Part shown: piece by piece, positions 5,558 to 27,734 of the stretch
Layout: each line of letters begins with the position of its first letter
How positions within the stretch are numbered: position 1 is the stretch's first letter
NCBI RefSeq assembly: GCF_900537065.1
Contig: NZ_UNRC01000003.1
Coordinates: 1-64,000, forward strand
Source: Sphingorhabdus sp. Alg239-R122
GTDB taxonomy: Bacteria > Pseudomonadota > Alphaproteobacteria > Sphingomonadales > Sphingomonadaceae
Reading direction: 5' to 3'
Length of the DNA stretch: 64,000 nt
Notes under the pieces: generated by a model
The model's database searches: none
What the model was told of the DNA's origin: nothing
What the model saw: the letters and a program-made list of their open reading frames with translations, nothing else
Translations under genes and position numbers: made by a program

Positions 5558-6647
5558 GGTTTACCTGCCCTTGCCGATGTGCCTCATCACCCTGTGCGAG
5601 TTGCCGTATCTGTATGTATATGTCTGCAACTTCGTGGAAAAGAGCATCAGGTATTTCATACCCTACGCGGCCACCGTCATATAATGCGCGGGCGAGCTTC
5701 CGGTTTTCGATGACTGTTATCCCATGCAGGAGGGCTTTTCTTTTTATCATGAGGGCAAAATTGTTCCGTCCCTTTGCCAGAATCTGTGGGGCATTCATGA
5801 TTTCCGCTTTATAGCTAAGGGCAATGGCGTAGTGATGCGGATTTGTGATGATAACGTCAGAACCTGCAACACCGCCCATGCTTTCGCTTTGCTGTGCAAA
5901 TTCCTTGTGCAGTTGCTTGCGTTTCTGCTTGAGCCGGGCATCACCTTCGCGGTCACGCGTTTCGCGTTTGACCTCGCGGCCTGACATACGCATCTGCTTG
6001 TGATATTCCTTGCGTACGATTATCTGGTCGATAACCATGAAAATAAAGGCAAGGCCCATAAAGACAAGCAGCAGGCGAAACCCGGTCAGCAGCATGATGC
6101 TGGCCAGTTTTTTCGCATCGCTTGCGGCGGCACCGTAATTATCAATGCTATAATGGATGAACAGATATGCAGACCCCGAATAGGCAGCCAGCTTGATGAC
6201 ATTTTTCAAGGTTTCCTTAAGCATTTTCAGTGAAAATACGCGCTTGAATCCTTTAGCCGGGTTCATACGGCTGAAATCTGGTTTCAGCGGATGTGTGGAG
6301 AAAATAAAACCACGCAACTGCAGCATTTCAAAGAAAATGATGATGACAACGGCAATGCCCATTAGCAGTAGCAGGGGGTAGAATGCGGGCCATAGTTTTG
6401 CAGCTGATAAAGCAAGTATTTCGGAGCTTGTCGTAGCGCTATTGACCTCTATCGCCACTGACTTACGCATAATGCCAATCATATTTTGGGCTGCCATCGC
6501 ACCGAATATGCTGATGAAAGCACAAAGCGCGGCAAGCACCGATAGAAAACCCAAATCCATGCCGCGTGCGACTGTTCCCTTTTCTCGGGCCTTGCGCAAT
6601 TTGAACGGAGTTGGTTCTTCGGTTTTATCCTGATCTGAATCTTCCAT
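5547..6647 (-). CDS. flhB: Flagellar export switch protein FlhB with NPHH cleavage site
   Basis: 366 residues. FlhB switches the export apparatus from rod/hook to filament substrates after self-cleavage in its cytoplasmic domain. N-terminal 'DKTEEPTPFKLRKAREKG' is the family signature, followed by four membrane segments (about 32-55, 88-110, 145-170, 185-210) and the charged linker. The self-cleavage motif, NPTH in most members, is N269-P270-H271-H272 here, at the same residue number as in Salmonella. Asn and Pro, between which cleavage occurs, are kept. Stop is 11 nt inside flhA; start is 3 nt after the fliR stop, so the four export genes form a tight operon. Confidence 0.96.
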   Translation of the reverse strand: MEDSDQDKTEEPTPFKLRKAREKGTVARGMDLGFLSVLAALCAFISIFGAMAAQNMIGIMRKSVAIEVNSATTSSEILALSAAKLWPAFYPLLLLMGIAVVIIIFFEMLQLRGFIFSTHPLKPDFSRMNPAKGFKRVFSLKMLKETLKNVIKLAAYSGSAYLFIHYSIDNYGAAASDAKKLASIMLLTGFRLLLVFMGLAFIFMVIDQIIVRKEYHKQMRMSGREVKRETRDREGDARLKQKRKQLHKEFAQQSESMGGVAGSDVIITNPHHYAIALSYKAEIMNAPQILAKGRNNFALMIKRKALLHGITVIENRKLARALYDGGRVGYEIPDALFHEVADIYIQIRQLAQGDEAHRQGQVNHAG

Positions 6648-6650
6648 AAG

Positions 6651-7409
6651 TTACAGCAACCTCGGAATGATATCGAGCGTAGTGCGCATGATCTGCAGAA
6701 AAAGAGCAGATGAAACTGCAAAGGCTATAGGCAGGAATAAAAGAAGCATCATTGCTTTCGCCTGAAAACCGAGCAACAGGACATGCATTTGGGGCAATGT
6801 TCGCGACATGGCTGCGATGGTGATATCGGTAAGGAAAAGAGCCAGCATCGGAATGGCGGCTATCCCGAAAGCGAGCAGGAAGGTAATCGATATATGTGAA
6901 AAGAGCGGTAGTAGACTGGATGGTCCTTGCGCTACTCCAAGTGGAATATTTTCCACCGAAGCAGACCATATGGCGATCAATTCTGCAGGCCCCTCCATAG
7001 CAAAGAAAATAGCCGCCGCCGCATAGGCGAATAATGTGCCGACAAGAGGCGTGCGTGCCCGCGTTGTCGGGTCCACAAGAAGCGCCAGACCAAATCCGGC
7101 TTGCACATCAAGTGTCCTTCCCGCCGTATATAGCGCGGCAAAGGCGATCTGAAATGCAAGCACGATTGTCAGCCCTAGCAGCAATTCCATGGATGCAATT
7201 TGTACCAAACCCTTTTCGGCAAGATTGAGCAGATAGGTCTGTTCAGGATAACTGGTCACCAACCATGCAGTCAGGCCAAGGCCGAATAGCACGCGTATTA
7301 CCGCTGGTACGCGGATCAGAGTGAAAGGTGGTGCAAAGGCAAAGACAGGAGCAATTCGCAAGCTCAATAGCAGTATTGCCATTATCCAATTTGCAAATTC
7401 GTTGGACAT
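6651..7409 (-). CDS. fliR: Flagellar export protein FliR
   Basis: 252 residues with about six hydrophobic segments, typical FliR, which assembles with FliP and FliQ into the helical core of the export gate. Family stretches seen: 'LRIAPVFAFAPPFTLIRVPAVIR' region near the N terminus, 'TAGRTLDVQAGFGLALLVDP' in the middle, and the C-terminal 'LPQMHVLLLGFQAKAM'. It lies 6 nt after fliQ and 3 nt before flhB in one operon. Start is ATG. Confidence 0.95.
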   Translation of the reverse strand: MSNEFANWIMAILLLSLRIAPVFAFAPPFTLIRVPAVIRVLFGLGLTAWLVTSYPEQTYLLNLAEKGLVQIASMELLLGLTIVLAFQIAFAALYTAGRTLDVQAGFGLALLVDPTTRARTPLVGTLFAYAAAAIFFAMEGPAELIAIWSASVENIPLGVAQGPSSLLPLFSHISITFLLAFGIAAIPMLALFLTDITIAAMSRTLPQMHVLLLGFQAKAMMLLLFLPIAFAVSSALFLQIMRTTLDIIPRLL

Positions 7410-7984: not shown

Positions 7985-9160
7985 ATGCCAAAGAATATTG
8001 TGATTTGTCTGGACGGAACGGGCAACCAGATCGAAGAGAATATCTCCAATGTACTGAAGCTTTACCGGGCAGTCGATAAGAGCAGCGAGCAGCTTGTGTT
8101 TTATGACCAGGGGGTGGGAACGCTCGGTCGCATCTACACCTGGGGCTGGTTGAAACAGAAGCTGAAAAACGGGCTGGGCCTGGCCTTTGGGTTGGGGCTC
8201 GATCGCAATGTGCTCAAGGCCTATGAGTTTATTGTCCAGAACTATGAGGACTATGACAATATCTATATTTTCGGTTTCAGCCGGGGCGCGCATACTGCCC
8301 GCGTATTAGCCGGGATGATATATGAAGTGGGCATATTGCGCGCGCACCAGATACATTTGAGCGGCGCGGCGCTGACTGCTTATAAACAGGCACCAAGGGC
8401 ACGCCATGACATCGGCGAAGCGATTGGTGAGGATGTGTATGAAGGCGAAGGCGCAAATTTCCGCCGCGTGGCGCAGCCGCGCACGGCGGCCGTCCGCTTT
8501 TTGGGGTTATGGGACACAGTCAGCTCTGTTTTTGTGCCTAATGTTAAAACATATTTTCCGCCGATCGTGCGGGAGGACCTGCCCCATACCAAATATAATC
8601 CGGCAGTACGTATGTTCCGGCAGGCAGCGTCGATTGATGAGCGGCGGCGGATGTTCCGGCTGGATGGATGGGAGGAGGGGCAACCTTTCAAACCCAATAT
8701 ACATTCACTGGGCGAACCGGATGCGCAGGATGCGCGGCAAGTCTGGTTTGCCGGATATCATAGCGATGTTGGTGGCGGACATAAGCGCGCCGAAAGCGGC
8801 ACTTCCCAATTCCCGCTGATCTGGATGATCAGTGAAGCGGAGAAGGCAGGGCTCAGGGTATTTGGCCGCATGGCCCGTTATGTGAGCGGCATTGAGCCCT
8901 ATAGCGACACGACGCGCTATCTGTATCCGGAGCCAGACCCGGCCGGGAAGTTGCATCCCTCGCTCAAGGGGTTTTGGTGCCTGCTTGAGGTTATTCCCAA
9001 ACGCAATAGGCGCAGCGAATGGCCGGAACGCAGAAATAGGTGGGGTGTATATCTGCCGCTCGGCGAACGCCGCTATATAGCGGCGGATGCCAACATTCAT
9101 TCCAGTGTGTATGACAGGATTAAACTATGCCCGGACTATGATCCACCAAACCTGCCGTGA
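7985..9160 (+). CDS. DUF2235 alpha/beta hydrolase
   Basis: 391-residue soluble protein of the DUF2235 family (Tle1-like lipase fold). The N terminus 'NIVICLDGTGNQIEEN' is the family signature, the nucleophile elbow is 'GFSRGAHTARVLAG' at about 98-111 with the serine in G-F-S-R-G, and 'WFAGYHSDVGGGH' at about 250-262 provides the conserved Asp/His region. Members hydrolyse lipids or esters; some are type VI secretion effectors. No type VI genes, no immunity-like partner and no signal peptide are present here, so this looks like a housekeeping cytoplasmic member with unknown substrate. GGGGGAA ribosome site before ATG. Monocistronic or with the phosphatase 88 nt downstream. Confidence 0.88.
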   Translation: MPKNIVICLDGTGNQIEENISNVLKLYRAVDKSSEQLVFYDQGVGTLGRIYTWGWLKQKLKNGLGLAFGLGLDRNVLKAYEFIVQNYEDYDNIYIFGFSRGAHTARVLAGMIYEVGILRAHQIHLSGAALTAYKQAPRARHDIGEAIGEDVYEGEGANFRRVAQPRTAAVRFLGLWDTVSSVFVPNVKTYFPPIVREDLPHTKYNPAVRMFRQAASIDERRRMFRLDGWEEGQPFKPNIHSLGEPDAQDARQVWFAGYHSDVGGGHKRAESGTSQFPLIWMISEAEKAGLRVFGRMARYVSGIEPYSDTTRYLYPEPDPAGKLHPSLKGFWCLLEVIPKRNRRSEWPERRNRWGVYLPLGERRYIAADANIHSSVYDRIKLCPDYDPPNLP

Positions 9161-10679: not shown

Positions 10680-10693
10680 TTGATATATGTCAT
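10680..10693. promoter_or_regulatory. Distal Fnr/Dnr-type box upstream of the porin gene
   Basis: TTGATATATGTCAT: a full left half TTGAT, 4 nt spacer, and right half GTCAT, matching the Dnr-type consensus TTGAT-N4-RTCAA at 9 of 10 positions. Centre lies 18 bp upstream of the centre of the perfect box that follows. Confidence 0.6.
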
Positions 10694-10697
10694 TTGT

Positions 10698-10711
10698 TTG
10701 ATATATATCAA
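10698..10711. promoter_or_regulatory. Perfect Fnr/Dnr-type box upstream of the porin-nnrS unit
   Basis: TTGATATATATCAA, an exact match to TTGAT-N4-ATCAA and fully palindromic. If it acts at -41.5, transcription would start near 10746, leaving a 24 nt leader before the porin ATG. The same 14 bases recur in front of mobA/moaA. Binding by the regulator at 13199-13912 is inferred from its recognition helix. Confidence 0.85.
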
Positions 10712-10769
10712 TGATAACTCAGGGGCTCTGTTCTAGCCACTCTCGAAGATAGTTCTCGAAAGTGGTCAA

Positions 10770-12002
10770 ATGGCACACAAGTCTCTCAAATTTCTATTGT
10801 CTGTCGCGGCGGCGATTCCATGTATGTTATCATCTTATGCAGTCGCTGCAGATGATAAAGCTGCAGAAAACGACCTGTTCATTGATCCATATGTCGATAT
10901 ACGCTACCGGCTGGAAACGGTGGATCAGGACGGTCTGCCGCGTGATGCGACCGCTTCGACGGTGCGCGTCAAGGCTGGCTTTGAAACCGATGAATGGCAA
11001 GGTTTTAGCCTGAAAGTCGAAGGCGAGGCCATTGCCAATGTCGGTGCAGAAAAGTTCAATGATACACTGAACGGCAAAACACAATTTCCGGTTGTAGCTG
11101 ATCCTGAAGATATCGCTCTCAATCAGGCCTATGTGCGCTGGCGGCATGATAATACTGTCGATTTGCGCGCCGGGCGTCAGGTGATTAATTTTGATAACCA
11201 GCGCTGGGTTGGTTCGGTTGGTTGGCGGCAGAATGACCAGACGTTCGATGCCGTGGTCGGGACAGTAAATTCGCCGGGCGGGCCATCTGTAACCTATGGC
11301 TATAGCTGGCGCACCAACCGCATTTTTGGACCGGATTCTCCGCGCGGTACATTTCGCGATAATGATATGCATTTTGTACGGGCGGGTTATAATGTGCCGG
11401 TCGCCGGCAATGTCACGGCCTATGCCTATCTGTTCGACGTGCCCGATGCGCCGGGGGCATCCTCGCAGACATTCGGCGTGCGCCTGTCGGGTAAACAGGG
11501 TCTGGGCGGGGCCAAACTGCTTTATGCCGCTGAATATGCCCGACAGTCCGATTATGGCAATAACCCGGCGCGCTTTGGTCATGATTATCTGTTGCTCGAA
11601 CCCGGCATTGCGGCGGGCCCAGTGACGGTAAAATTCGGATATGAAAAACTGGAAGGCGATGGCGTAACAGCACTCAGGACGCCGTTTGCAACGCTGCATG
11701 CCTTTAATGGCTGGGCGGACAAGTTTTTGTCCACGCCCGCCAATGGACTGCGCGATATATATGGCGATGTCACGCTAAAACCCGCGAGCCCGAAATGGCT
11801 GAAAGGTACGGTATTCAGAGCCGTCTATCATGACTTTAAATCCACCCGTGGCGATCTGAATTATGGCCAGGAATGGGATTTCCTGATCGCGCGTAAAGTT
11901 GGCAAGCATGTATCGCTGTCACTCAAATATGCGGATTATGACAGCGATGGCTTTGCTACCGATACGCAAAAATTCTGGTTTACCACGCAGCTGAAGTTCT
12001 AG
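10770..12002 (+). CDS. Outer-membrane porin, alginate-export family
   Basis: 410 residues with a signal peptide (about 1-26, ending 'SSYAVA|AD') and a beta-barrel body of alternating strands rich in aromatic residues ('LRAGRQVINFDNQRWVGSV', 'SYSWRTNRIFGPDSPRGTF'), ending in 'WFTTQLKF' with a terminal Phe as expected for outer-membrane insertion. It belongs to the alginate_exp type of porins, a family that also supplies channels for other anions. No alginate gene is nearby; instead it is the first gene of a unit with nnrS behind two Fnr/Dnr boxes, so a role in passage of nitrate, nitrite or other small anions under low oxygen is inferred. Stop codon overlaps the nnrS start by one base. Confidence 0.8.
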   Translation: MAHKSLKFLLSVAAAIPCMLSSYAVAADDKAAENDLFIDPYVDIRYRLETVDQDGLPRDATASTVRVKAGFETDEWQGFSLKVEGEAIANVGAEKFNDTLNGKTQFPVVADPEDIALNQAYVRWRHDNTVDLRAGRQVINFDNQRWVGSVGWRQNDQTFDAVVGTVNSPGGPSVTYGYSWRTNRIFGPDSPRGTFRDNDMHFVRAGYNVPVAGNVTAYAYLFDVPDAPGASSQTFGVRLSGKQGLGGAKLLYAAEYARQSDYGNNPARFGHDYLLLEPGIAAGPVTVKFGYEKLEGDGVTALRTPFATLHAFNGWADKFLSTPANGLRDIYGDVTLKPASPKWLKGTVFRAVYHDFKSTRGDLNYGQEWDFLIARKVGKHVSLSLKYADYDSDGFATDTQKFWFTTQLKF

Positions 12003-13195
12003 TGCGGAAAGGGGAGCGTTCTGCACCAGGCGAAAAGCGCCGGGCCTATAACGGGCCGGCGCTTTTTAGCCACGGCTTTCGTCCCTTCTTCTTTTGCGCG
12101 GCATTATTCGCTGGCCTGGCTATACCCGCATGGATGGCGGCGTTTTCGCATGGTTACGGCATTGGTACGGGCGGAAATGCGCTGACCTGGCATATACATG
12201 AAATGATCTATGGTTATCTGGCGGCCGCAATTGCCGGTTTTGTGATGACGGCCATTCCCAACTGGACCGGGCGACTGCCGGTGATGGGACTGCCGCTAGC
12301 TTTGCTGGTTTTGCTTTGGCTCGCGGGACGCATGCTGATGTTCGGCAGCGATTATGGAATGGTAACCCCGATCGTGGACAGTCTGTTTTTGGTGATTGTG
12401 GCAGGTTTTGCCTGGCGCGAAATATTGGCCGGTAAAAACAAGCGCAATCTGCCCATATGCCTGCTGCTCAGCCTGTTTGCGCTTAGCAATGTCCTGTTTC
12501 ATTTTGAGGAGGCGCTGGGGCTCCCTTATCAGACCGGCATGCGGCTGGGTATCACTGTGGTGACAGTGCTGATGATGCTGATTGGCGGGCGGATTATCCC
12601 TTCCTTCACCACGAACTGGATGCGTAAACAGGGTATATTGCCTGAGCCCGCACCGTTTGGGGGCTATGACAAAATCGCAATGCTGGTGGCGGCGCTGACA
12701 CTGGTCGGTTGGGTTATCGCGCCCAATGCTGCACTGGTCGGTTATGGATTGGTGGCTGTCGCTATAATGCACTTTGTACGGCTGCGGCGCTGGCGTGGTT
12801 GGCAGACGGCCCGCGATCCACTCATGCTGGTGCTGCACATTGCTTATGCATGGATACCGGCGGCTTTCCTGCTGATGGGACTTGCGATATTGCGGCCTGA
12901 AGCGCTGACAGCCGCACATGCCATGCACGCATTGACAGCGGGTGCGGCCGGACAGCTTACTCTGGCCATTATGACGCGAGCCAGTCTGGGCCATGGCGGG
13001 CGTGAATTGCGGGCCGGTGCGGGTACAATAGCGATCTATATACTCGCATTTACCGGTGCCTTACTTCGGATGATATTCCCTTTTACGGGTATGGGCTACG
13101 CGCTTGGTATGTCCATCGCGGGCATCGTGTGGGCCAGCGCATTTTTGCTGTTTGCAATATTATATGCCCCGCTGTTTTTCACCAAACGCCGGTAA
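12002..13195 (+). CDS. nnrS: NnrS family membrane protein
   Basis: 397 residues with about 12 membrane segments. NnrS proteins are heme- and copper-containing membrane proteins found with denitrification genes and linked to tolerance of nitric oxide stress. Seen: 'FSHGFRPFFF' at the N terminus, 'WHIHEMIYGYLAAAIAGF' with the paired histidines, 'GRIIPSFTTNW', and 'THMLTAGAAGQ'-like 'MHALTAGAAGQLTLAIMTR'. The GTG start overlaps the porin stop (TAGTG), implying coupling with the porin. The stop is 3 nt from the convergent regulator gene. Confidence 0.92.
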   Translation: MRKGERSAPGEKRRAYNGPALFSHGFRPFFFCAALFAGLAIPAWMAAFSHGYGIGTGGNALTWHIHEMIYGYLAAAIAGFVMTAIPNWTGRLPVMGLPLALLVLLWLAGRMLMFGSDYGMVTPIVDSLFLVIVAGFAWREILAGKNKRNLPICLLLSLFALSNVLFHFEEALGLPYQTGMRLGITVVTVLMMLIGGRIIPSFTTNWMRKQGILPEPAPFGGYDKIAMLVAALTLVGWVIAPNAALVGYGLVAVAIMHFVRLRRWRGWQTARDPLMLVLHIAYAWIPAAFLLMGLAILRPEALTAAHAMHALTAGAAGQLTLAIMTRASLGHGGRELRAGAGTIAIYILAFTGALLRMIFPFTGMGYALGMSIAGIVWASAFLLFAILYAPLFFTKRR

Positions 13196-13198
13196 AGC

Positions 13199-13912
13199 CT
13201 AGCGGCTGCTGAGGCCTATTTCTGGATCATCGATGAGCGCGTTGGGCTTTGCGAAAGCAGCCAGTGCATCCGGCTTGTCAATATGCACCACCGGCCCCTG
13301 AATGCGTACGCCATGCGGATTGAGCGCGCCAAAGGAACGCGACAGGTTTTCCGGAGTCATACTGAGCAGGGCGGCAATGGTCCGTTTGTCGGCAGGCAGG
13401 GTAAAGCTGGACGCGTGATCATGGCTTGCAGCGAGGCGGAGCAAGTAATTGGCGAGCCGCTCGGTTGCCGGGCGCAGTTTCGCTTCCTTGTGCATTTTCA
13501 CAAGCTGCCGGTAAGCCTTTGACAATTCGTTCGCGATGGCCACGGCGAACATCTTGTCTTCGGCAAAATGCCGCTTGATATGTTCGGCCGGTATCATCAG
13601 CAGCCGTGACGGCGTTAATGTACGCGCTGACATCAGGCACACCGCATCGCTCAGCACCGCCGCCAGAATGAAGGCGGATGTCGGTTCGATGATGGCCATG
13701 CTGGTTTCGCGGCCATTGTTGCAGGCAAATAATTCGACCGAACCTTCCACCAGAATATAGAGGAAATCGGCACTGTCACCTTCATGTATAAGCTGCACCT
13801 GCGGGGGAAAATGCTGCAGGAGCGCGGCCGATACAAGCTCTTCGAAATTGCTGTCCTCTACCCCGGCGAACAGGGGCAGGTCACGGACTGCCGGCATATC
13901 TTGTGCACGCAT
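13199..13912 (-). CDS. Crp/Fnr family regulator, Dnr-like, without Fe-S cysteines
   Basis: 237 residues: cyclic-nucleotide-type sensor domain (about 12-125), dimer helix (about 126-160), winged helix-turn-helix (165-225). The recognition helix 'LSMTPENLSRSFG' carries Glu188, Ser191 and Arg192, the E..SR set by which Fnr-type proteins read TTGAT half-sites. The only cysteines are 64 and 92, so the N-terminal Fe-S cluster of Fnr is absent; it is more like Dnr/Nnr, which sense nitric oxide. AGGGGG ribosome site 6 nt before ATG. A perfect box 44-57 nt upstream with 'TATATA' at -10 distance suggests self-regulation. Likely controls the porin-nnrS, nar and moa units. Confidence 0.88.
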   Translation of the reverse strand: MRAQDMPAVRDLPLFAGVEDSNFEELVSAALLQHFPPQVQLIHEGDSADFLYILVEGSVELFACNNGRETSMAIIEPTSAFILAAVLSDAVCLMSARTLTPSRLLMIPAEHIKRHFAEDKMFAVAIANELSKAYRQLVKMHKEAKLRPATERLANYLLRLAASHDHASSFTLPADKRTIAALLSMTPENLSRSFGALNPHGVRIQGPVVHIDKPDALAAFAKPNALIDDPEIGLSSR

Positions 13913-13955: not shown

Positions 13956-13969
13956 TTGATAAATATCAA
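13956..13969. promoter_or_regulatory. Fnr/Dnr-type box proximal to the regulator gene
   Basis: TTGATAAATATCAA, a perfect TTGAT-N4-ATCAA. On the - strand a TATATA hexamer lies about 25-30 nt downstream, the spacing of a class II site, so it most likely serves the regulator gene. It is 103 bp from the box in front of narK. Confidence 0.8.
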
Positions 13970-14126: not shown

Positions 14127-14149
14127 GAATGACAAGGGAGTCAGGGGAA

Positions 14150-16894
14150 ATGCAAGACGCAGCAGTGGCAAGTTCGGGCCAGCAATACAAAGCACTGGGG
14201 ATGAGCACGTTCGCCTTCACCACCTGCTTTGCCGTCTGGACAATTTTTTCGATCATCGGGATCAAGATCAAGGCCGATCTGGGCCTGTCTGACACACAAT
14301 TTGGTTTGCTCGTCGGCACGCCTATTTTGACCGGCTCCCTATCACGCATTTTTCTGGGCATTTGGGCTGATCAATATGGCGGGCGGCTGGTTCTCACGCT
14401 GACCATGTTGTGTGCGGCGATCGCAACATTCCTGCTCTCCATGGCTACGAGCTACCCGGTAATGTTGCTTGCAGCCCTTGGTGTAGGTTTGGCGGGCGGC
14501 AGTTTTGCCGTTGGTATCGCCTATGTTTCCACATGGTATCCCAAAGAAAAGCAGGGCACAGCTTTGGGGATATTTGGGGTTGGTAACGTCGGTGCCGCGA
14601 TCACAAGTTTTGTAGCGCCTTTGGTGTTGGTAGCATTTGGCTGGACGACTGTGGCTCAGGTTTGGGCGGCGGTCCTGGCGGCAGTGGCGGTGTTCTTCTG
14701 GCTTTCTACAGAAGATGATCCAGTGCTTAAGGCACGGCGTCAGAGCGGCGAAAAACCGCGTTCGGCGTTAATGCAGCTGGAGCCGCTTAAAAATCAGCAG
14801 GTCTGGCGGTTTGCGCTCTACTATTTCTTCGTATTCGGGGCATTTGTTGCCCTTGCCTTGTGGCTCCCCCACTATCTGATTGATGTTTACAAACTGGACA
14901 TCAAAACGGCGGGTATGATTGCTGTGGCTTATTCGGTTCCGGCCAGTTTATTTCGCGCCTATGGTGGTCATCTGTCGGACAAATATGGCGCGCGCAAGGT
15001 GATGTATGCGACCTTTGGCGTGTCGCTCATCTGCCTGTTCATGCTTTCCTACCCTGAAACCGATTATATCATTCACGGTATCGAAGGACCGATTGCCTTT
15101 TCCACTTCGATGGGTTTGGTCCCGTTCGTTATTGCGATTTTCATCCTCGGTTTCTTTATGTCGCTGGGCAAAGCTGCAGTTTACAAGCATATCCCTGTCT
15201 ATTACCCGGGCAATGTTGGATCGGTCGGCGGTCTGGTCGGGATGATTGGCGGCCTGGGTGGTTTCTTTCTTCCCATCGCGTTTGGCGCGATGAATGACCT
15301 TACCGGCATTTGGACCAGCTGCTTCATGCTGTTGTTTTTCCTGGTCGCCGTTGCGCTTGCCTGGATGCATTTTTCGGTGCGCCAGATGGAACAGAGAGCG
15401 GTCGGAACACAATTGTCCGAACTGCCTGAATTCCCTGAAATGCAGGATATTCAGGATAGTACCATCCACAAGGAGACCCATGCTCCCTCTAAGCTGCTTG
15501 AAACCTGGGAGCCTGAAGATGAGGAATTCTGGGCCGATAAAGGCGCAAAGATTGCGCAGCGCAATTTGTGGATTTCCATTCCCTGTTTGCTGCTGGCCTT
15601 TTCGGTCTGGATGGTCTGGTCAGTGGTGGTCGCAAAACTGCCCGTTATCGGCTTTGATTATTCGACCGATCAACTCTTCTGGCTGGCCGCCTTGCCGGGG
15701 CTTTCAGGGGCAACCTTAAGAATATTTTATAGCTTTATGGTGCCAATTTTCGGTGGCAGGCTATGGACAACTTTAACGACACTTTCATTGCTTATTCCAG
15801 CCTTCGGTATCGGCTATGCGGTACAGAATCCGCAAACACCCTATTTCATTTTCCTGATACTCTCGCTGCTCTGCGGTTTTGGCGGCGGCAATTTTGCCTC
15901 CTCCATGGCGAATATCAGCTTCTTTTTCCCGAAACGGCAAAAGGGTAATGCGCTGGCACTCAATGCTGGCCTTGGCAATGCGGGCGTATCGGTCATGCAG
16001 TTTCTGGTGCCGATCGTCATTACCGCCGGTGTTTTCGGCTTTATGGGCGGCGAACCGCAAGCCACTTCGGATGGTGGCTCACTGTGGATCCAAAATGCCG
16101 GCTTTATCTGGGTACCGTTTATCCTGATCAGCGCAGCACTTGCGTGGTTTGGTATGAATGATATCGCTTCAGCCAAGGCAAGCTTTGCCGATCAGGCGGT
16201 GATTTTTCAGCGCAAGCATAACTGGATCATGTGTTTCCTGTATACTGGCACCTTCGGGTCTTTCATCGGCTATTCGGCCGGCTTCCCGCTCTTGTCGAAA
16301 ATCGCGTTTCCAGATGTGGATTCACTCAAATATGTGTTCCTTGGCCCTCTTGTCGGTGCGATATCGCGTGCGGCGACCGGCTGGATATCTGACAAATGGG
16401 GCGGCGGCCGCGTTACATTCTGGACGTTCCTCCTGATGATCGCGGCAGTGGCCGGTGTGCTCTACTTCCTGGGCATCAAGGACCAGCCAGGCGCATTCTG
16501 GGGTTTCTTCGCAATGTTCATGCTGCTCTTCTTTGCAACGGGGGTGGGCAATGCTTCGACCTTCCAGATGATCCCGATCATAATGCGCAAGGAAATCGGG
16601 CGGCTCATGCCTAGACTACCTGCGAATGAGCAGCTGCGCAATGCAGAGAAAGAATCTGCGGCGATTATCGGCTTTACCTCGGCAATCGCAGCCTATGGCG
16701 CGTTCTTCATCCCGAAATCATACGGAACGTCGATTTCGATGACGGGCGCACCCAATGCGGCGCTTTGGGGTTTCCTGATCTTCTACGCCGCCTGCGCTGC
16801 CATGACTTGGTTTGTTTATACCCGCCAAGGCGGCCTGCTCCACGACATTGAACGCGGACGTGAAGCTGCATCTCCTATCCCGACAACAGCATAA
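14150..16894 (+). CDS. narK: Fused double nitrate/nitrite transporter NarK
   Basis: 914 residues from ATG 14150 (an upstream ATG at 14129 would give 921). AAGGGAG at 14134-14140 is well placed for 14150. The protein is two major facilitator domains in one chain: domain 1 about residues 20-430, a charged linker about 430-475, domain 2 about 475-905, each with about 12 membrane segments. Each half has the NarK glycine-rich signatures ('GLAGGSFAVGIAYVSTWYP', 'GFGGGNFASSMANISFFFP'). Such NarK1-NarK2 fusions are known in denitrifiers such as Paracoccus, one half being a proton-nitrate symporter and the other a nitrate/nitrite exchanger. First gene of the nar operon. Confidence 0.95.
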   Translation: MQDAAVASSGQQYKALGMSTFAFTTCFAVWTIFSIIGIKIKADLGLSDTQFGLLVGTPILTGSLSRIFLGIWADQYGGRLVLTLTMLCAAIATFLLSMATSYPVMLLAALGVGLAGGSFAVGIAYVSTWYPKEKQGTALGIFGVGNVGAAITSFVAPLVLVAFGWTTVAQVWAAVLAAVAVFFWLSTEDDPVLKARRQSGEKPRSALMQLEPLKNQQVWRFALYYFFVFGAFVALALWLPHYLIDVYKLDIKTAGMIAVAYSVPASLFRAYGGHLSDKYGARKVMYATFGVSLICLFMLSYPETDYIIHGIEGPIAFSTSMGLVPFVIAIFILGFFMSLGKAAVYKHIPVYYPGNVGSVGGLVGMIGGLGGFFLPIAFGAMNDLTGIWTSCFMLLFFLVAVALAWMHFSVRQMEQRAVGTQLSELPEFPEMQDIQDSTIHKETHAPSKLLETWEPEDEEFWADKGAKIAQRNLWISIPCLLLAFSVWMVWSVVVAKLPVIGFDYSTDQLFWLAALPGLSGATLRIFYSFMVPIFGGRLWTTLTTLSLLIPAFGIGYAVQNPQTPYFIFLILSLLCGFGGGNFASSMANISFFFPKRQKGNALALNAGLGNAGVSVMQFLVPIVITAGVFGFMGGEPQATSDGGSLWIQNAGFIWVPFILISAALAWFGMNDIASAKASFADQAVIFQRKHNWIMCFLYTGTFGSFIGYSAGFPLLSKIAFPDVDSLKYVFLGPLVGAISRAATGWISDKWGGGRVTFWTFLLMIAAVAGVLYFLGIKDQPGAFWGFFAMFMLLFFATGVGNASTFQMIPIIMRKEIGRLMPRLPANEQLRNAEKESAAIIGFTSAIAAYGAFFIPKSYGTSISMTGAPNAALWGFLIFYAACAAMTWFVYTRQGGLLHDIERGREAASPIPTTA

Positions 16895-16910: not shown

Positions 16911-19900
16911 ATGAGCCATCTTCTTGATCGATTGAACTTTTTCAGCAAGACCAAAGCCCCTTATGCGGACGGGCACGGGATTACGACCAGCGAAGATCGG
17001 CGCTGGGAAGATGGCTATCGAAAACGGTGGCAGCATGACAAGATCGTCCGTTCCACGCACGGCGTGAACTGCACGGGTTCATGCTCATGGAAAGTCTATG
17101 TGAAGGGCGGGATCGTCACATGGGAAACGCAGCAGACAGACTATCCGCGCACACGGCCTGATCTGCCCAATCATGAACCACGCGGCTGTTCCCGCGGTGC
17201 GAGCTATAGCTGGTACATCTATTCCGCCAACCGCGTGAAATATCCGCTTATCCGGTCAAGGTTGGTACGGTTGTGGCGCAAGGCGCGCGAAACCATGGAG
17301 CCGGTTGCGGCATGGAAATCTATCGTTGAAGATCAGGCGAAACGCGACAGTTACACAAAAATCCGCGGCCATGGCGGTTTTATCCGCGCGGCGTGGGACG
17401 AAGTGACAGAGATTATCGCTGCGTCCAATGCCTATACCGCAAAGAAATACGGCCCCGACCGCGTTATCGGTTTCTCGCCCATTCCGGCCATGTCAATGGT
17501 GTCCTATGCAGCGGGTTCACGTTATCTGTCCCTGCTGGGCGGCACATGCATGTCATTCTATGACTGGTATTGCGATTTGCCACCAGCTTCGCCCATGACA
17601 TGGGGGGAACAGACCGATGTTCCCGAAAGCGCCGACTGGTATAATGCAGGCTTCCTGATGCTTTGGGGTTCCAATGTGCCGCAGACACGGACACCGGATG
17701 CCCATTTTTACACTGAAGCGCGCTACAGAGGCGCCAAATCAGTTGTGGTATCGCCCGATTATTCCGAAGCGGCGAAATTCTCTGATATGTGGCTGCATCC
17801 TAAACAGGGCACAGATGCTGCGCTGGCTATGGCGATGGGCCATGTCATTTTGCGCGAATATCATCTTGACCGCCAAGCCGAATATTTTGAGGAATATGCG
17901 CGCAAATATTCCGATATGCCCATGCTGGTGCGGCTGGTGGAAAAAGATGGGCATTTCATTCCCGAGCGCTTGCTCAGAGCCTCTGAATTCAAAGACAATC
18001 TGGGCGAAAAAGAAAATGCCGAATGGAAAACCGTTGCCTTTGATGAACTGAGTGAAAAAATAGTCGTACCCAATGGCACCATCGGCTCACGCTGGAGCGA
18101 AAAGGGCAAATGGAACCTTGAAGAAAAAGAAACCGACGGTAATGATACCAAGCTCAAGCTGACCAACATACTGGACGGCGATCATGATACAGTGGTCGAT
18201 GTCGCGTTCCCATATTTCGGCAACCGCGAGCATGATTATTTCAAAGGTACGGATCATCCCGATACGCTGATCCGGCGCGTACCTGCCCGTAATGTTAAGC
18301 TTGCAAAAGGCGGCGTATTGGTTGCCTCTGTCTATGACCTTTTCATGGCAAACTATGGTCTGGACCGCGGCCTTGGCGGTGAAAACATCGCCAGCGATTA
18401 TAGTGAGAATGAGCCTTATACACCGGCATGGGCTGAGCAAATAACCGGTACACCCGCCGATCAGATAATCACCGTAGCTCGCGAATTTGCGGACAATGCC
18501 GAAAAAACGAACGGCAAGTCGATGGTGATATTGGGGGCAGGCCTCAACCACTGGTATCATATGGACATGAACTACAGGGGAATTATCAATCTCCTGATCA
18601 TGTGCGGCTGTATTGGCCAGTCGGGTGGCGGTTGGTCGCATTATGTGGGGCAGGAAAAACTGCGTCCGCAAACCGGGTGGCAGCCGCTGGCATTTGCGCT
18701 CGATTGGGCGCGCCCGCCGAGGCATCAGAACTCAACCAGCTTCTTTTATGCGCATAGCGATCAATGGCGTTATGAGACTCTTGATGTCGATGAAATCCTG
18801 TCGCCTACCGCGCCCGAAGGGGAAATGAGTGGATCGCTGATTGATTTTAATGTCCGCGCGGAGCGTATGGGTTGGCTGCCGTCTGCGCCGCAGCTAAAAA
18901 CCAATCCGCTAGAGGTTGCAAAAGCTGCACGCGATGCTGGCAAAGAACCCAAAGACTATGTGGTTGATGGTTTGAAATCAGGCGACCTGAAGCTTAGCTG
19001 CCATGATCCCGATGATCCGGCAAACTGGCCGCGCAACATGTTCGTCTGGCGCTCCAATATCCTGGGCTCGTCGGGCAAGGGGCATGAATATTTCCTCAAA
19101 CATCTGCTCGGCACCGAACATGGCGTGCAAGGCAAAGACCTCGGGGAAATGGGGCACAAAAAACCAGAAGATGTCGTCTGGCATGACGAAGCGCCAGAAG
19201 GAAAACTTGATCTTGTTGTTACGTTGGATTTCCGTATGTCGACGACCTGCGTCTATTCAGACATCGTCCTGCCGACAGCAACCTGGTATGAGAAAAACGA
19301 CCTGAACACGTCGGATATGCATCCGTTTATTCACCCACTTTCGGCGGCGGTGGACCCTGTATGGGAATCCAAATCGGACTGGGAAATCTACAAGGCAATC
19401 GCCAAGAAATTCTCTGAAATCGCTCCAGAGGTTCTCGGCGAAGAAGAGGATGTGGTGATGACGCCTATCCTGCACGATACGCCAGGTGAAATTGCGCAAC
19501 CCATGGATGTTCAGGACTGGAAAACCGGTGATGTGGAACCAATCCCGGGTAAGACCATGGCACAGATTTCGGTTGTGAAACGCGATTATCCGAACCTCTA
19601 CAAACGCTTCACCGCGCTGGGCCCGCTCATGGAAAATGTCGGCAATGGCGGTAAGGGCATCGCCTGGAAGACGAAAGAGGAAGTTGAGCATCTGAAAGAG
19701 CTTAACGGTGTCGTCACCGAAGAGGGTCCAACCAAAGGGATGGCCAAGATCGAGTCAGACATTGACGCAACCGAAGTCATTCTGATGCTTGCGCCCGAAA
19801 CCAATGGTGAAGTCGCGGTCAAGGCATGGGAAGCTCTGGAAGAATTTACCGGACGCGAACATGCGCATCTGGCATTGCCCAAAGAGGATGAAAAAATCCG

Positions 19901-20663
19901 TTACCGCGATGTCGTGGCACAGCCGCGCAAAATTATCTCCTCACCGACATGGTCGGGCATTGAGAGCGAGAAGGTTTGCTATAATGCGGGCTATACCAAC
20001 GTGCATGAATTGATCCCGTGGCGCACATTGACCGGGCGACAACAGCTTTATCAGGACCATCTGTGGATGCGCGCCTTTGGTGAAGGTTTCTGCGTCTATC
20101 GCCCGCCAATTGATACCAAGGCGGTAAAGCCGATGCTCGACCGTGCCGAGGGGCAGGAGCATGTTGTACTCAATTTCATCACCCCGCACCAGAAATGGGG
20201 AATTCACTCGACCTATACCGACAATCTGTTGATGCTGACGCTATCACGTGGCGGTCCGATTGTGTGGATGTCCGAAGTGGACGCAGTCAAGGCAGGTTTG
20301 GTCGATAATGACTGGGTCGAAGCGTTTAATTCGAACGGCGCTCTTGTGGCCCGTGTGGTGGTGTCGCAGCGTATGAAAGAAGGCACACTGTTCATGTATC
20401 ATGCGCAGGAAAAAATCGTAAATGTTCCCGGGTCGCCAATAACCGGGCAGCGCGGGGGCATTCATAACAGTGTCACCCGCGCCATCCTGAAACCCACCCA
20501 TATGATCGGCGGCTATGCGCAGCAAAGCTATGGCTTCAACTATTACGGCACGGTCGGTTCAAACCGCGATGAATTCGTGATTGTCCGCAAGCTGGCCGAT
20601 GTCGATTGGCTGGACGGGGAAAAAGACCGGTTACACCCGGATGATATGGAGGCGGCAGAATGA
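16911..20663 (+). CDS. narG: Respiratory nitrate reductase alpha subunit
   Basis: 1250 residues, full length. Catalytic subunit of membrane-bound nitrate reductase, cytoplasmic face, reducing nitrate to nitrite at a bis-MGD molybdenum site. The FS0 cluster ligands are H50, C54, C58 and C93, one off from the E. coli numbering, and the Mo ligand is Asp222 in 'YDWYCDLPPASP'. N-terminal 'KTKAPYADGHG' resembles the vestigial signal of NarG, which is not exported. Separated from narK by 16 nt; stop overlaps the narH start (ATGA). Confidence 0.98.
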   Translation: MSHLLDRLNFFSKTKAPYADGHGITTSEDRRWEDGYRKRWQHDKIVRSTHGVNCTGSCSWKVYVKGGIVTWETQQTDYPRTRPDLPNHEPRGCSRGASYSWYIYSANRVKYPLIRSRLVRLWRKARETMEPVAAWKSIVEDQAKRDSYTKIRGHGGFIRAAWDEVTEIIAASNAYTAKKYGPDRVIGFSPIPAMSMVSYAAGSRYLSLLGGTCMSFYDWYCDLPPASPMTWGEQTDVPESADWYNAGFLMLWGSNVPQTRTPDAHFYTEARYRGAKSVVVSPDYSEAAKFSDMWLHPKQGTDAALAMAMGHVILREYHLDRQAEYFEEYARKYSDMPMLVRLVEKDGHFIPERLLRASEFKDNLGEKENAEWKTVAFDELSEKIVVPNGTIGSRWSEKGKWNLEEKETDGNDTKLKLTNILDGDHDTVVDVAFPYFGNREHDYFKGTDHPDTLIRRVPARNVKLAKGGVLVASVYDLFMANYGLDRGLGGENIASDYSENEPYTPAWAEQITGTPADQIITVAREFADNAEKTNGKSMVILGAGLNHWYHMDMNYRGIINLLIMCGCIGQSGGGWSHYVGQEKLRPQTGWQPLAFALDWARPPRHQNSTSFFYAHSDQWRYETLDVDEILSPTAPEGEMSGSLIDFNVRAERMGWLPSAPQLKTNPLEVAKAARDAGKEPKDYVVDGLKSGDLKLSCHDPDDPANWPRNMFVWRSNILGSSGKGHEYFLKHLLGTEHGVQGKDLGEMGHKKPEDVVWHDEAPEGKLDLVVTLDFRMSTTCVYSDIVLPTATWYEKNDLNTSDMHPFIHPLSAAVDPVWESKSDWEIYKAIAKKFSEIAPEVLGEEEDVVMTPILHDTPGEIAQPMDVQDWKTGDVEPIPGKTMAQISVVKRDYPNLYKRFTALGPLMENVGNGGKGIAWKTKEEVEHLKELNGVVTEEGPTKGMAKIESDIDATEVILMLAPETNGEVAVKAWEALEEFTGREHAHLALPKEDEKIRYRDVVAQPRKIISSPTWSGIESEKVCYNAGYTNVHELIPWRTLTGRQQLYQDHLWMRAFGEGFCVYRPPIDTKAVKPMLDRAEGQEHVVLNFITPHQKWGIHSTYTDNLLMLTLSRGGPIVWMSEVDAVKAGLVDNDWVEAFNSNGALVARVVVSQRMKEGTLFMYHAQEKIVNVPGSPITGQRGGIHNSVTRAILKPTHMIGGYAQQSYGFNYYGTVGSNRDEFVIVRKLADVDWLDGEKDRLHPDDMEAAE

Positions 20664-22204
20664 AAGTACGTGCGCAAATAGGCAAGGTCCTGAACCTCGA
20701 CAAATGCATTGGCTGCCACACCTGTTCGGTCACGTGCAAAAATGTATGGACCAGCCGCGAAGGCATGGAATATGCATGGTTCAACAATGTTGAAACAAAG
20801 CCCGGCATCGGCTTTCCTAAGGACTGGGAAAACCAGGACCGCTGGAATGGCGGCTGGGAGCGGCAGAGAAATGGCCGCATCCGACCGAAAATGGGCGGGA
20901 AATGGCGGTTGCTGGCCAAGATTTTCGCCAATCCCGATATGCCGGAAATTGACGATTATTACGAACCTTTCACGTTCGACTATGAACATCTGCAAAAGTC
21001 GCCCGAAATGAAGGCGATGCCGACCGCGCGGCCGCGTTCGCTGGTGTCAGGCGAACGGATGGAGAAAATCGAATGGGGCCCGAACTGGGAAGAAATTCTG
21101 GGCGGAGAATTTTCCAAGCGCAGCGAAGATTATAATTTCGAAGGCGTCGAAAAAGAGATTTACGGCGAATTTGAAAACACTTTCATGATGTATTTGCCGC
21201 GGTTATGCGAGCATTGCCTCAACCCGACCTGTGTGGCGGCCTGCCCTTCAGGATCGATCTACAAGCGAGAAGAAGATGGTATTGTTCTAATTGACCAGGA
21301 AAAATGCCGTGGCTGGCGGATGTGCGTGTCGGGCTGTCCGTACAAGAAAATCTATTATAACTGGAATAGCGGTAAATCGGAAAAATGCACATTCTGTTAT
21401 CCGCGTATTGAAGTGGGTCAACCGACAGTGTGCTCTGAAACCTGTGTCGGGCGTATCCGCTACCTGGGCGTGATGCTCTATGATGCTGACCGCATCGAAG
21501 AAGCCGCCTCGGCGGAAAGTGAGCAGGACCTCTATCAGGCACAGCTTGATATTTTCCTGGATCCCAATGACCCAGAAGTCATCACCCAGGCGCGCAAGGA
21601 TGGCGTGCCCGAAGCATGGCTCGAATCCGCCCGCAAGTCGCCGGTCTATAAAATGGCGATGGAATGGAAAGTCGCATTCCCGCTGCATCCTGAATACCGG
21701 ACATTGCCAATGGTATGGTATGTACCGCCACTGTCACCGATTAATTCGGCGGCAAGTGCAGGTAAAATGGCGTTCAAGGATGACATGCCCGACGTACGCT
21801 CACTGCGTATTCCGCTGCGTTATCTTGCCAACCTGCTGACGGCGGGAGAGGAGGAGCCGATTGCGCTTTGCCTAGAACGGATGATGGCGATGCGAAGCTA
21901 TATGCGTGCCAAAACAGTTGATGGCGTCATTGCGACCGATATTGCCGAAGGCGTTGGCATGACAGCTGGACAAATAGACGAGATGTATCATGTGATGGCG
22001 ATTGCCAATTATGAAGACCGTTTTGTCATTCCAACTTCCCACCGCGAAGAAGCCGAAGATGCGTTTGATGAGCGCGGATCGTGCGGTTTCTCATTCGGCA
22101 ACGGCTGTTCGGGCGGTTCCACCGAAACCAATATGTTCGGCACACCGAAAAAGAAGAAAGTCCAGTCACCATCGGCGTTTCTAACGGAAGGAGAGCGGTC
22201 ATGA
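20660..22204 (+). CDS. narH: Respiratory nitrate reductase beta subunit
   Basis: 514 residues. Carries electrons from NarI to NarG through three [4Fe-4S] and one [3Fe-4S] cluster. The first cysteine group is C16-C19-C22-C26 ('CIGCHTCSVTC'); the second is 'CEHCLNPTCVAACP'; the third 'KCRGWRMCVSGCP' has Trp in the place of one Cys, as in all NarH, which gives the [3Fe-4S] cluster; the fourth is 'CTFCYPRIEVGQPTVCSETC'. Overlaps narG and narJ by 4 nt at each side. Confidence 0.98.
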   Translation: MKVRAQIGKVLNLDKCIGCHTCSVTCKNVWTSREGMEYAWFNNVETKPGIGFPKDWENQDRWNGGWERQRNGRIRPKMGGKWRLLAKIFANPDMPEIDDYYEPFTFDYEHLQKSPEMKAMPTARPRSLVSGERMEKIEWGPNWEEILGGEFSKRSEDYNFEGVEKEIYGEFENTFMMYLPRLCEHCLNPTCVAACPSGSIYKREEDGIVLIDQEKCRGWRMCVSGCPYKKIYYNWNSGKSEKCTFCYPRIEVGQPTVCSETCVGRIRYLGVMLYDADRIEEAASAESEQDLYQAQLDIFLDPNDPEVITQARKDGVPEAWLESARKSPVYKMAMEWKVAFPLHPEYRTLPMVWYVPPLSPINSAASAGKMAFKDDMPDVRSLRIPLRYLANLLTAGEEEPIALCLERMMAMRSYMRAKTVDGVIATDIAEGVGMTAGQIDEMYHVMAIANYEDRFVIPTSHREEAEDAFDERGSCGFSFGNGCSGGSTETNMFGTPKKKKVQSPSAFLTEGERS

Positions 22205-22938
22205 TGAAGACATTCAAAGTACTGGCCGCGCTGCTGACATATCCGACTGTAGAGATTAAGGAGGCCGTTGAAGATTTTCTGCCAGCATTGAAAGAAGAAG
22301 GGCTGGTTCCCGCCCCTTTTCAGAAACGTTTGCAGGCACTGATTACGGAATATCGGGAGCGTGATTTGCTCGACTTGCAGGAACGTTATGTTCTCTTGTT
22401 CGACCGCACCCGTTCGCTCTCGCTGCACTTGTTTGAACACGTGCACGGCGAGAGCCGGGATCGCGGCCAGGCGATGGTTGATTTGAAAGCTATGTACGAA
22501 GACAAAGGCCTGACGATCAGCTCGACCGAACTGCCTGATTTCCTACCGCTGTTCCTTGAATATCTGTCCATCCTGTCGCAAACTGAGGCTTTGGAGCTGC
22601 TGGGCGAACCTGCGCATGTCATTGCCGCTATCGGCGAGCGGTTAATCAAGCGTGGCAGCAGCTATGCCGCTGTGCTCGAGGCGCTGGGGCATCTATCAGG
22701 TCCGGCTGATGAAAAGGTCAAAGAAGCGCTGCTTAAAGAACCCGATGATGATCCCGAAGATCTGGAAGCGCTTGATGCGGCGTGGGAAGCGGAACAAGTG
22801 AGCTTTGGCCCCGGGACGCCCGATGAAGGCTGCCCGAAAGCATCAGATATGCTGAGTAAAATGCTGACAGATATTCCGCCGCAGGGCGAAGCCAAACCTG
22901 AGGAAACGACATCTAACGGAGGTACGAAAAATGGCTGA
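22201..22938 (+). CDS. narJ: Nitrate reductase assembly chaperone NarJ
   Basis: 245 residues from ATG 22201, which overlaps the narH stop (ATGATG; the second ATG at 22204 is also possible). An all-helical TorD/NarJ-type chaperone that binds the NarG N terminus and is needed for cofactor insertion, without being part of the enzyme. Seen: 'MKTFKVLAALLTYPT' and 'YVLLFDRTRSLSLHLFEHVHGESRDRG', the family signature (about 60-85). The C-terminal 60 residues are acidic and probably disordered. Overlaps narI by 8 nt. A reading frame open further upstream is only the narH region in another frame. Confidence 0.95.
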   Translation: MMKTFKVLAALLTYPTVEIKEAVEDFLPALKEEGLVPAPFQKRLQALITEYRERDLLDLQERYVLLFDRTRSLSLHLFEHVHGESRDRGQAMVDLKAMYEDKGLTISSTELPDFLPLFLEYLSILSQTEALELLGEPAHVIAAIGERLIKRGSSYAAVLEALGHLSGPADEKVKEALLKEPDDDPEDLEALDAAWEAEQVSFGPGTPDEGCPKASDMLSKMLTDIPPQGEAKPEETTSNGGTKNG

Positions 22939-23626
22939 ATTTTTGAACCATCTCGTTTTCGGCATCTATCCTTATATCGCTTTGTCTGTGCTCGCGATTG
23001 GGTCGGTCATCCGTTATGATCGTGAACCCTATAGCTGGAAATCAGGATCCAGCCAGCTTTTGCGGCGCAAGCAGTTGATGGTGGGCTCGCTGTGTTTTCA
23101 CCTGGGCGTACTGATTATTTTCTTCGGGCATCTAGGAGGGTTGCTGACACCGATTGAGCTGTTTGACGCTATGGGCATCAGTCATGGCGTGAAACAGACA
23201 CTTGCGATTGTTGTGGGCGGCATAGCTGGCATATTCGCATTTTTCGGCGCCACCCTGTTACTCCATCGCCGCCTGTTTGACCCCCGCATAAGGCGCTCAT
23301 CCAGCTTTTCGGACATCGCCATATTGTTCCTGCTCTGGTTGCAACTGGTGCTGGGACTGGCCACGATATTTGTATCGTTGGATCATCTGGATGGGCATGA
23401 AATGGTGAAATTCATGTCATGGGCGCGGGGTATTTTCACGTTCCAGGCGGATGCATCATCCTTTGTCATGGATGTGCATCCGGTCTTCAAGGCACACTTG
23501 TTCCTGGGCCTGACTATATTTCTGGTCTTTCCGTTCACACGGCTTGTGCACATGTTCTCTGCTCCTGTGCGCTACATCTGGCGCTCCGGGTATCAGATTG
23601 TACGCAGCAAGAAGGCCGCGTTATGA
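22931..23626 (+). CDS. narI: Respiratory nitrate reductase gamma subunit, cytochrome b
   Basis: 231 residues, five membrane helices, two b hemes; oxidises quinol on the outer face and passes electrons inward to NarH. Axial ligands fit His57, His67, His189 and His207: the spacings of 10 and 18 are the same as for E. coli His56/66 and His187/205. 'HLVFGIYPYIALSVLAIGSVIRYD' begins the first helix. Start is within narJ, stop overlaps the next gene by 4 nt (ATGA). Confidence 0.97.
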   Translation: MAEFLNHLVFGIYPYIALSVLAIGSVIRYDREPYSWKSGSSQLLRRKQLMVGSLCFHLGVLIIFFGHLGGLLTPIELFDAMGISHGVKQTLAIVVGGIAGIFAFFGATLLLHRRLFDPRIRRSSSFSDIAILFLLWLQLVLGLATIFVSLDHLDGHEMVKFMSWARGIFTFQADASSFVMDVHPVFKAHLFLGLTIFLVFPFTRLVHMFSAPVRYIWRSGYQIVRSKKAAL

Positions 23627-25017: not shown

Positions 25018-25079
25018 ATGCTGTTCTTTCGGTTCGTCTGGACCGGGATATGATATAAGTTTGTGCATACACGGCATTC

Positions 25080-25093
25080 TTGATATATATCAA
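25080..25093. promoter_or_regulatory. Fnr/Dnr-type box between mobA and moaA
   Basis: TTGATATATATCAA, perfect and identical to the box at 10698-10711. It sits between divergent mobA and moaA. For mobA it gives start near 25045 with a good -10; for moaA it gives start near 25128, right at the ribosome site and 13 nt before the TTG codon. One site could therefore serve both directions. Confidence 0.85.
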
Positions 25094-25140
25094 TGCCTGT
25101 TTCGGCGTGACTGTTACCACTTCAAGGCAAGGACACATAA

Positions 25141-26214: not shown

Positions 26215-26463
26215 ATGGCTGAGATCATTTTTTACGGGAAGTTTCAAGATATTATTGGTCCCAGCCTGGAGCTGGGATTACCTGAAGGGGTTACAAGCCT
26301 GAAGGAATTGGTGTCGTATCTTGGCAAGCTATATGCGGGGTTTTCCGAAATGGTTTTGAACGCACGGACGAAAATTGTCCTGAATGATGTTATTGTACAG
26401 ACAGACATGCCGATTTCGGACGCGGACAGGATAGAATTCCTGCCGCCCTTTAGTGGAGGGTAA
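26215..26463 (+). CDS. moaD: Molybdopterin synthase small subunit MoaD
   Basis: 82-residue ubiquitin-like sulfur carrier ending in 'LPPFSGG'; the terminal Gly-Gly is thiocarboxylated and donates sulfur to the precursor in MoaE. Body 'MAEIIFYGKFQDIIG' and 'VLNDVIVQTDMPISDADRIEF' fits the beta-grasp fold. Starts right after the moaA stop and overlaps or nearly touches moaE. Confidence 0.95.
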   Translation: MAEIIFYGKFQDIIGPSLELGLPEGVTSLKELVSYLGKLYAGFSEMVLNARTKIVLNDVIVQTDMPISDADRIEFLPPFSGG

Positions 26464-26464
26464 G

Positions 26465-26908: not shown

Positions 26909-26914
26909 ACGCTG

Positions 26915-27676: not shown

Positions 27677-27734
27677 TGGAAGAGGCTGATATAGTTATCG
27701 GGAATTTCGTGGCGATCAGGGGTTTGGAGTGACA

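Follow-up and report, generated by a model that had tools for sequence, protein, structure and literature searches.

The question raised by this locus is what passes through a porin that matches an alginate-export family and overlaps nnrS. The window, a stretch of 64,000 nucleotides from Sphingorhabdus sp. Alg239-R122 (contig NZ_UNRC01000003.1, positions 1 to 64,000), encodes the two genes on the same strand:

10770..12002, + strand: PF13372-type outer-membrane porin, predicted to be 18-stranded and proposed as a nitrate/nitrite porin; open reading frame (ORF) of 410 amino acids (aa) with a C-terminal F.
12002..13195, + strand: nnrS (NnrS, PF05940); ORF of 397 aa with a GTG start.

The ORFs read in the window bear out the coordinates of the pair and the TAGTG stop/start overlap reported in a first-pass annotation of this DNA: the stop codon of the porin gene and the start codon of nnrS share one base (TAG/GTG). 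The nearest relatives likewise have an overlap of one base, as TAGTG in L040 and TGATG in L002 and L003 (loci are given L numbers and genomes G numbers). The porin is probably a nitrate/nitrite porin of the outer membrane, the passage of these ions being suggested by genomic context. A door for nitrate and nitrite is the most likely function because relatives of the porin recur in clusters for nitrate respiration or nitrate assimilation. The strongest argument is that these two kinds of cluster, which have different partners and promoters, share nitrate and nitrite.

The positions of the porin, narG and nirB were compared across 149 genomes from the family of the window's organism, with a limit of 10 kb. 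Eight of the 56 porin places lie <10 kb from narG, 36 from nirB and 12 from neither. As a control, OprO/P-type porins (PF07396) were located in the 57 genomes that carry narG or nirB; none of their 58 places, which are all those in these genomes, is within 10 kb of either gene. The porin itself is present in 51 of the 57 genomes that have narG or nirB, against 3/92 that have neither (p = 3e-29, uncorrected for kinship), in counts that include broken or partial genes (narG of G007 and G116; porins of G007, G017 and G036) and a contig-end porin in G039. The exceptions are six narG/nirB genomes without the porin (G043, G052, G081, G091, G097 and G123) and three porin genomes without narG or nirB (G039, G104 and G110). 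Presence of the porin thus follows narG or nirB across the family, which supports the role in nitrate or nitrite passage that the first-pass annotation had read from the context.

The family porins split into a near group of nine places (at least 53% identity) and a far group of 47 (34–46%). Near copies go with respiration: narG occurs in 8/9 genomes that have one and in 4/140 that do not (p = 9e-10). Among all 47 far-group loci, 38 have nirB, nasA or nasT within 10 kb, three have a nitrate-type transporter and six have none of these. Most are ordered nasT-nrtA-(nrtB-nrtCD or a major facilitator superfamily, MFS, transporter)-porin-nirB-nirD-nasA-cobA. In far-group representatives, NirB, NirD, NtrCD and CobA score above model cut-offs and NtrB below, and the NasT and NrtA-like labels were assigned by Pfam (ANTAR and NMT1_2, respectively). 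The NasA representative reaches neither the NasA nor the NasC cut-off, its best-scoring model being one for formate dehydrogenase, and its name thus rests partly on context; L144 was labelled 'nas' on a NasA match of 31%, and the gene could be another molybdoenzyme. One genome, G157, has a copy beside narG (L159) and another in a nas operon (L160).

A tree was built from the 113 porin rows that were left once the set had been reduced at 75% identity; L154 and L156 lacked a complete porin frame. Three changes of the nar/nas label are needed on this tree. Of the 40 nas rows, 37 fall in the largest nas clade, which is free of nar rows; 22 of the 34 nar rows form a single clade that contains no nas row. 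Two clean lines, one nar and one nas, were considered and dropped, since the labels are mixed at two points: the G157 copies L159 and L160 pair with a support of 98, and nas row L053 falls in with Kordiimonas-type nar rows. The pairing of L159 with L160 implies that the family took on both roles on more than one occasion. Copies have thus moved between the pathways on a few occasions at least, in keeping with a shared substrate.

Relatives of the porin were also taken as the best 80 of 454 in a genome collection, with locus labels set by strict thresholds. There are 56 loci with narG, narH or narI within 10 kb, one with nas, five with a nitrate-type transporter and 18 with none; three of the 18 (L004, L008 and L014) are short contigs with ftrB beside the porin, two of which include the start of narK. 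Most sphingomonads have the porin, a divergent ftrB, narK and narGHJI, and in Kordiimonas- and Robiginitomaculum-type genomes narGHJI precedes the porin. In a sample of 190 genomes of the class, the porin is present in 24; narG or nirB occurs in 17 of these, against 42 of the other 166 (p = 2e-5). A sample of 200 genomes of the phylum has the porin in 15. Outside the class, seven of ten porin places have nar, nas, nrt or NarK-like genes (L161, L163, L164, L166, L167 and two in L168), the weakest being L167, with an MFS only. The other three are L165, with nnrS about 5 kb off, L169, with cobA and a weak nirB match, and L162, with nothing. The order in L168 is narGHJI, porin, a NIT-like protein, a formate/nitrite transporter, a second porin, cobA and nirB. 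Four pairs (L040/L140, L030/L139, L068/L146 and L073/L133) are the same porin, counted twice in the linkage-label and box counts.

Twenty class loci, mostly unlinked, were fetched, and 15 have no nar, nas or transporter label. Some loci without nar or nas, in this sample and among the best 80, have other nitrate/nitrite genes beside the porin. A NIT-domain chemoreceptor adjoins it in L047 (11425-13488), L065 (11215-13269) and L155 (6859-8826); L155 also has nrt genes. Perhaps nitrate/nitrite sensing is here paired with uptake. Other nitrate/nitrite neighbours at unlinked loci are a formate/nitrite transporter (L148) and NnrS (L149). For the unlinked loci, 105 of 116 neighbouring ORFs were scanned, those left out being duplicates of other loci and the nar-side genes of L014; the ORFs were chosen by rule, and shadow frames may be among them. 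The commonest Pfam families among the 105 are chemoreceptor, HAMP, radical SAM, NIT and carbonic anhydrase. A beta-carbonic anhydrase often adjoins the porin, also at nar-linked loci (L048, L056, L058, L059, L060, L072, L073, L141 and L148). NrdD/NrdG-type anaerobic ribonucleotide reductase genes are found near the porin in L061, L069, L076 and L066, again an anaerobic setting.

In the window itself, the porin–nnrS unit lies directly beside ftrB, narK and narGHJI, an adjacency that the first-pass annotation left out:

13199..13912, − strand: FtrB-like Crp/Fnr-family regulator (NCBIfam PRK09392, 316.8 bits against a cut-off of 211; Pfam cNMP_binding and HTH_Crp_2).
14129..16894, + strand: double-length MFS transporter of 921 aa, with MFS_1 in three stretches.
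16911..23626, + strand: narGHJI, respiratory nitrate reductase (TIGR01580, TIGR01660, TIGR00351, TIGR00684).
24436-25077, − strand: mobA.
25141-26214, + strand: moaA.
24436-29425: the whole mobA-to-moeA stretch.

The C-terminal half of the transporter is of the NarK/NarU type (TIGR00886 above cut-off, best stretch 478-858). Downstream of narGHJI are a parvulin-like protein and then, by best model match, mobA, moaA, moaE, moaC and moeA; the matches for mobA, moaE and moeA score below the model cut-offs. The window thus carries a nitrate-respiration island comprising the porin, nnrS, an ftrB-like regulator, a narK-type transporter, narGHJI and cofactor genes. On the other side of the porin, 7985-9160 encodes a protein that carries the catalytic domain of Tle1-like type VI phospholipase effectors, flanked by flagellar-type export genes (3527-7409, − strand) and an alkaline phosphatase.

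Cofactor genes that come after nar, together with the need of both NarG and NasA for molybdenum, could indicate that what the channel carries is molybdate, or a different cofactor ion of these enzymes, and not their substrate. This is very unlikely, given that the porin is also found in molybdenum-free contexts. In L163 it accompanies nrtABC-like genes with no nas enzyme in the stretch, and elsewhere its neighbours are NIT chemoreceptors, a formate/nitrite transporter or the NarK-like MFS of L167. The absence of molybdoenzymes from some contexts weakens the case for molybdate in part, molybdate transporters not having been sought as neighbours.

The first-pass annotation joined the porin and nnrS in one unit; in the wider survey nnrS is not the defining partner. 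The nnrS product of the window matches PF05940 over its full length (340.9 bits, positions 1-371 of 371), and nnrS was sought elsewhere with a profile built from NnrS relatives and a limit of 3 kb. It is found in 26 of the 56 nar-linked loci of the best 80 and in none of the 38 nas-linked family loci, so nnrS goes with the respiratory copies; among L133-L140, three of seven nar-linked loci have it, one being the duplicate L140. It is mostly divergent and upstream of the porin. As nnrS lies directly downstream on the same strand in only five of the 56 (L002, L003, L040, L048 and L056), its standing as a fixed partner was rejected. L140, on the same contig as L040, also has it directly downstream, and L135 looks alike by gene labels, its orientation having been mis-scored. 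The porin–nnrS operon of the window is one arrangement among several, and nnrS is a frequent, not a constant, neighbour.

NnrS protects under nitric oxide stress, according to one report (PMC7713065). With this stress gene and narK adjoining, and with nitrite accumulating in Sphingopyxis granuli (PMC4741004), the porin might serve mainly for nitrite exit, as detoxification, rather than for nitrate entry. We consider this distinctly unlikely. The nas-operon relatives sit with uptake systems (NrtABC or an MFS) and a nitrite reductase, where nitrite need not leave, and a passive channel would serve both directions.

Four Fnr-type sites were considered in the window:

10698..10711, + strand: proximal Fnr-type box TTGATATATATCAA, a perfect TTGATN4ATCAA with its centre at 10704.5.
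10680..10693, + strand: distal box-like site TTGATATATGTCAT, doubtful, with two mismatches.
13956..13969, + strand: second perfect Fnr-type box, in the ftrB–narK gap.
25080..25093, + strand: third perfect Fnr-type box, in the mobA–moaA gap.

The 64 kb contain three perfect sites where 0.09 would be expected, and all are inside the nitrate island. Of the two tandem Fnr/Dnr boxes described before the porin in the first-pass annotation, the proximal one stands, being perfect and retained in the three nearest relatives (L040, L002 and L003). The distal one does not: sites of its quality are common by chance (44 found, 31.7 expected) and it is missing from the same three relatives, so the tandem reading was cut down to one good box. 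Downstream of the proximal box is an invariant TA at 10734-10735; if this begins a −10 element, the box would be centred at −41.5, the place expected at a class II promoter activated by Fnr. An inverted repeat, CCACTCTCGA...TCGAAAGTGG (10736-10768), lies directly 5′ of the porin start codon and folds into a hairpin (z −2.04), which might mask the ribosome-binding region; the repeat is not retained in the three nearest relatives.

Across loci, an Fnr-type box that has one mismatch or none is present upstream of the porin in 52/64 nar-linked, 2/41 nas-linked, 4/8 transporter-linked and 15/38 unlinked loci, counts that are not independent, many loci being close kin, and that include two nar-linked duplicate contig pairs, without which the nar-linked figure is 50/62. 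Shuffled sequences of the nar-linked set gave 0.41 boxes on average. In the Sphingopyxis locus L046 the upstream box is TTGATGCAAGTCAA, and the porin occupies the place in the gene order of SGRAN_3843 of Sphingopyxis granuli TFA. The latter is listed as a monocistronic 'uncharacterised protein' of the Fnr-regulated set with an Fnr box at −41.5 (PMC7713065), and precedes ftrB (SGRAN_3844) and narU (SGRAN_3845; gene numbers as in PMC4741004). This order suggests that SGRAN_3843 is the orthologue of the window porin.

The family match that gives the porin its label is short. Pfam Alginate_exp (PF13372) scores 31 bits, against a cut-off of 25.2, over residues 106-167 only (62 residues), and matches 53 of 56 aligned sequences, the window protein included, at E≤0.001. 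NCBIfam opr_porin_1 (NF033922) reaches 35 bits in the window protein, far under its 100-bit cut-off, and PF03573 (OprD/Occ) has no match in it and a weak match in 2/56 aligned sequences. The structure predicted from the 56 sequences is an 18-stranded barrel (predicted local distance difference test score, pLDDT, 91.9; predicted template modelling score, pTM, 0.86). Its best matches among solved folds are OprD/Occ porins, led by the BenF-like 3jty (Z 34.2, root mean square deviation 2.4 over 346 residues) and including OpdQ (Z 31.8); AlgE has a Z of about 31.5. In the model, the likeness to OprD/Occ is one of shared fold and not of family membership. A sequence search of the PDB with the porin gave nothing at E≤1, and a search of a viral fold library gave six matches at E≤0.001, with poor TM-scores. 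The consensus has conserved inter-strand segments: GRQRINLDNQRFVGSVGWRQN, at 135-155, separates strands 5 and 6, and TPLATLHKFNGWADKF, at 304-319, separates strands 13 and 14; invariant residues include E49, R136, R145, R153, D317 and D329.

Export of alginate or another polysaccharide, as the family name implies, is suggested by the PF13372 match and the AlgE fold. OprD-type porins fit the fold equally well or better, however, and the gene context led us to reject export as extremely unlikely. No polysaccharide gene is found among the scanned genes of the window, which are part of its ORFs, in agreement with the first-pass annotation, and no polysaccharide-related family is among the best 25 of the 126 Pfam families of the 105 neighbours at unlinked loci. 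Most other loci are in nar or nas contexts. That annotation had named homologues lying mostly by polysaccharide genes as its refuting case; the neighbourhood survey it proposed was run and did not find this, most homologues near the window's family adjoining nar, nas, nir, nrt or nnrS. The best reading is that this subfamily is mislabelled as 'alginate export'.

Several observations weigh against a nitrate/nitrite porin. Of the 59 class genomes that carry narG or nirB, 42 do without the gene, and so nitrate use does not depend on it; just 10/28 class porin places lie within 10 kb of either gene, and 13 of the 15 unlinked class loci have no nitrate/nitrite gene recognised by labels or scans. 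In the family, the near-group copy is missing from 4/12 narG genomes (G007, G056, G081 and G097), whose nar clusters (L129-L132) have no porin. The six unlinked family loci have no recognised nitrate/nitrite gene, apart from L125, where an MFS weakly resembles NarK, and L117, which has an HPP-type protein. The orthology of SGRAN_3843 rests on gene order, not sequence. Finally, by a crude inward/outward rule the inward conserved charges are balanced (eight positive and eight negative positions) and the invariant R136 is scored outward, while conserved acidic columns number 17 against 11 basic. Given this balance, anion selectivity cannot be read from the sequence alone, and an argument for it from charge was tried and failed.

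Balanced charges, the many nitrate users without the porin and the relatives outside nitrate clusters would all suit a general small-solute porin that is made during nitrate use and has no preference for nitrate or nitrite. This explanation is unlikely: copies under different control, with an Fnr box or with none, share the nitrate context, and OprO/P-type control porins in the same genomes lack it.

A nitrate/nitrite porin is the probable reading preferred here, and might work as follows. Nitrate would enter, and nitrite equilibrate across the outer membrane, through an 18-stranded diffusion channel of which these two ions would be the main cargo. The channel would feed NarK in the inner membrane and then cytoplasmic NarGHI. 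Under anoxic conditions Fnr, bound at about −41.5, would activate the porin gene. The loop that joins strands 5 and 6 and carries the invariant R145 and R153 may bend inward, as it does in OprD porins, and make an anion-binding constriction. NnrS, encoded on the same message, would probably guard against nitric oxide arising from accumulated nitrite, and the relatives in nas operons would do the same job for nitrate assimilation. We lean slightly towards a broader proposal, that Pseudomonadota possess a dedicated family of outer-membrane nitrate/nitrite channels, in which Fnr controls the respiratory copies and the assimilatory ones sit in nas operons; crossing of the outer membrane would then be a selected, pathway-specific step and not leakage through general porins.

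Bacterial nitrate transport has been described at the inner membrane (NarK, NrtABC and FNT), and to our knowledge the crossing of the outer membrane by nitrate or nitrite has hardly been studied. No paper naming a nitrate/nitrite porin of this family is among the matches listed in a search of full-text literature, which is weak evidence given the thin coverage of subscription journals. If the proposal is true, the 'alginate export' label is wrong for such genes, the family is a marker for nitrate uptake in sphingomonads and other Pseudomonadota, and an old gap, the matching outer-membrane step of nitrate transport, becomes directly testable.

Among known systems, the OprD/Occ porins of pseudomonads (OccK, BenF-like) are 18-stranded barrels, as the window porin is predicted to be, but share 13% identity with it and belong to PF03573, which it does not match. 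We know of no tie between Occ porins and nar or nas clusters. They are known for carboxylate substrates (PMC4694141). In the same paper OpdQ of Pseudomonas aeruginosa is nitrate-induced through NarXL and the authors speculate on nitrate entry; no nar or nas cluster is mentioned for OpdQ in its abstract and discussion. OpdQ has an OprD fold like that of the window porin, but is of the OprD sequence family and is regulated through NarL. AlgE is alike in Pfam family and fold, whereas the window porin has no alginate genes seen nearby and has a nitrate/nitrite context. SGRAN_3843 differs from the window porin in being monocistronic and without nnrS, and resembles it in its Fnr box and in its place on the ftrB and narK/narU side.

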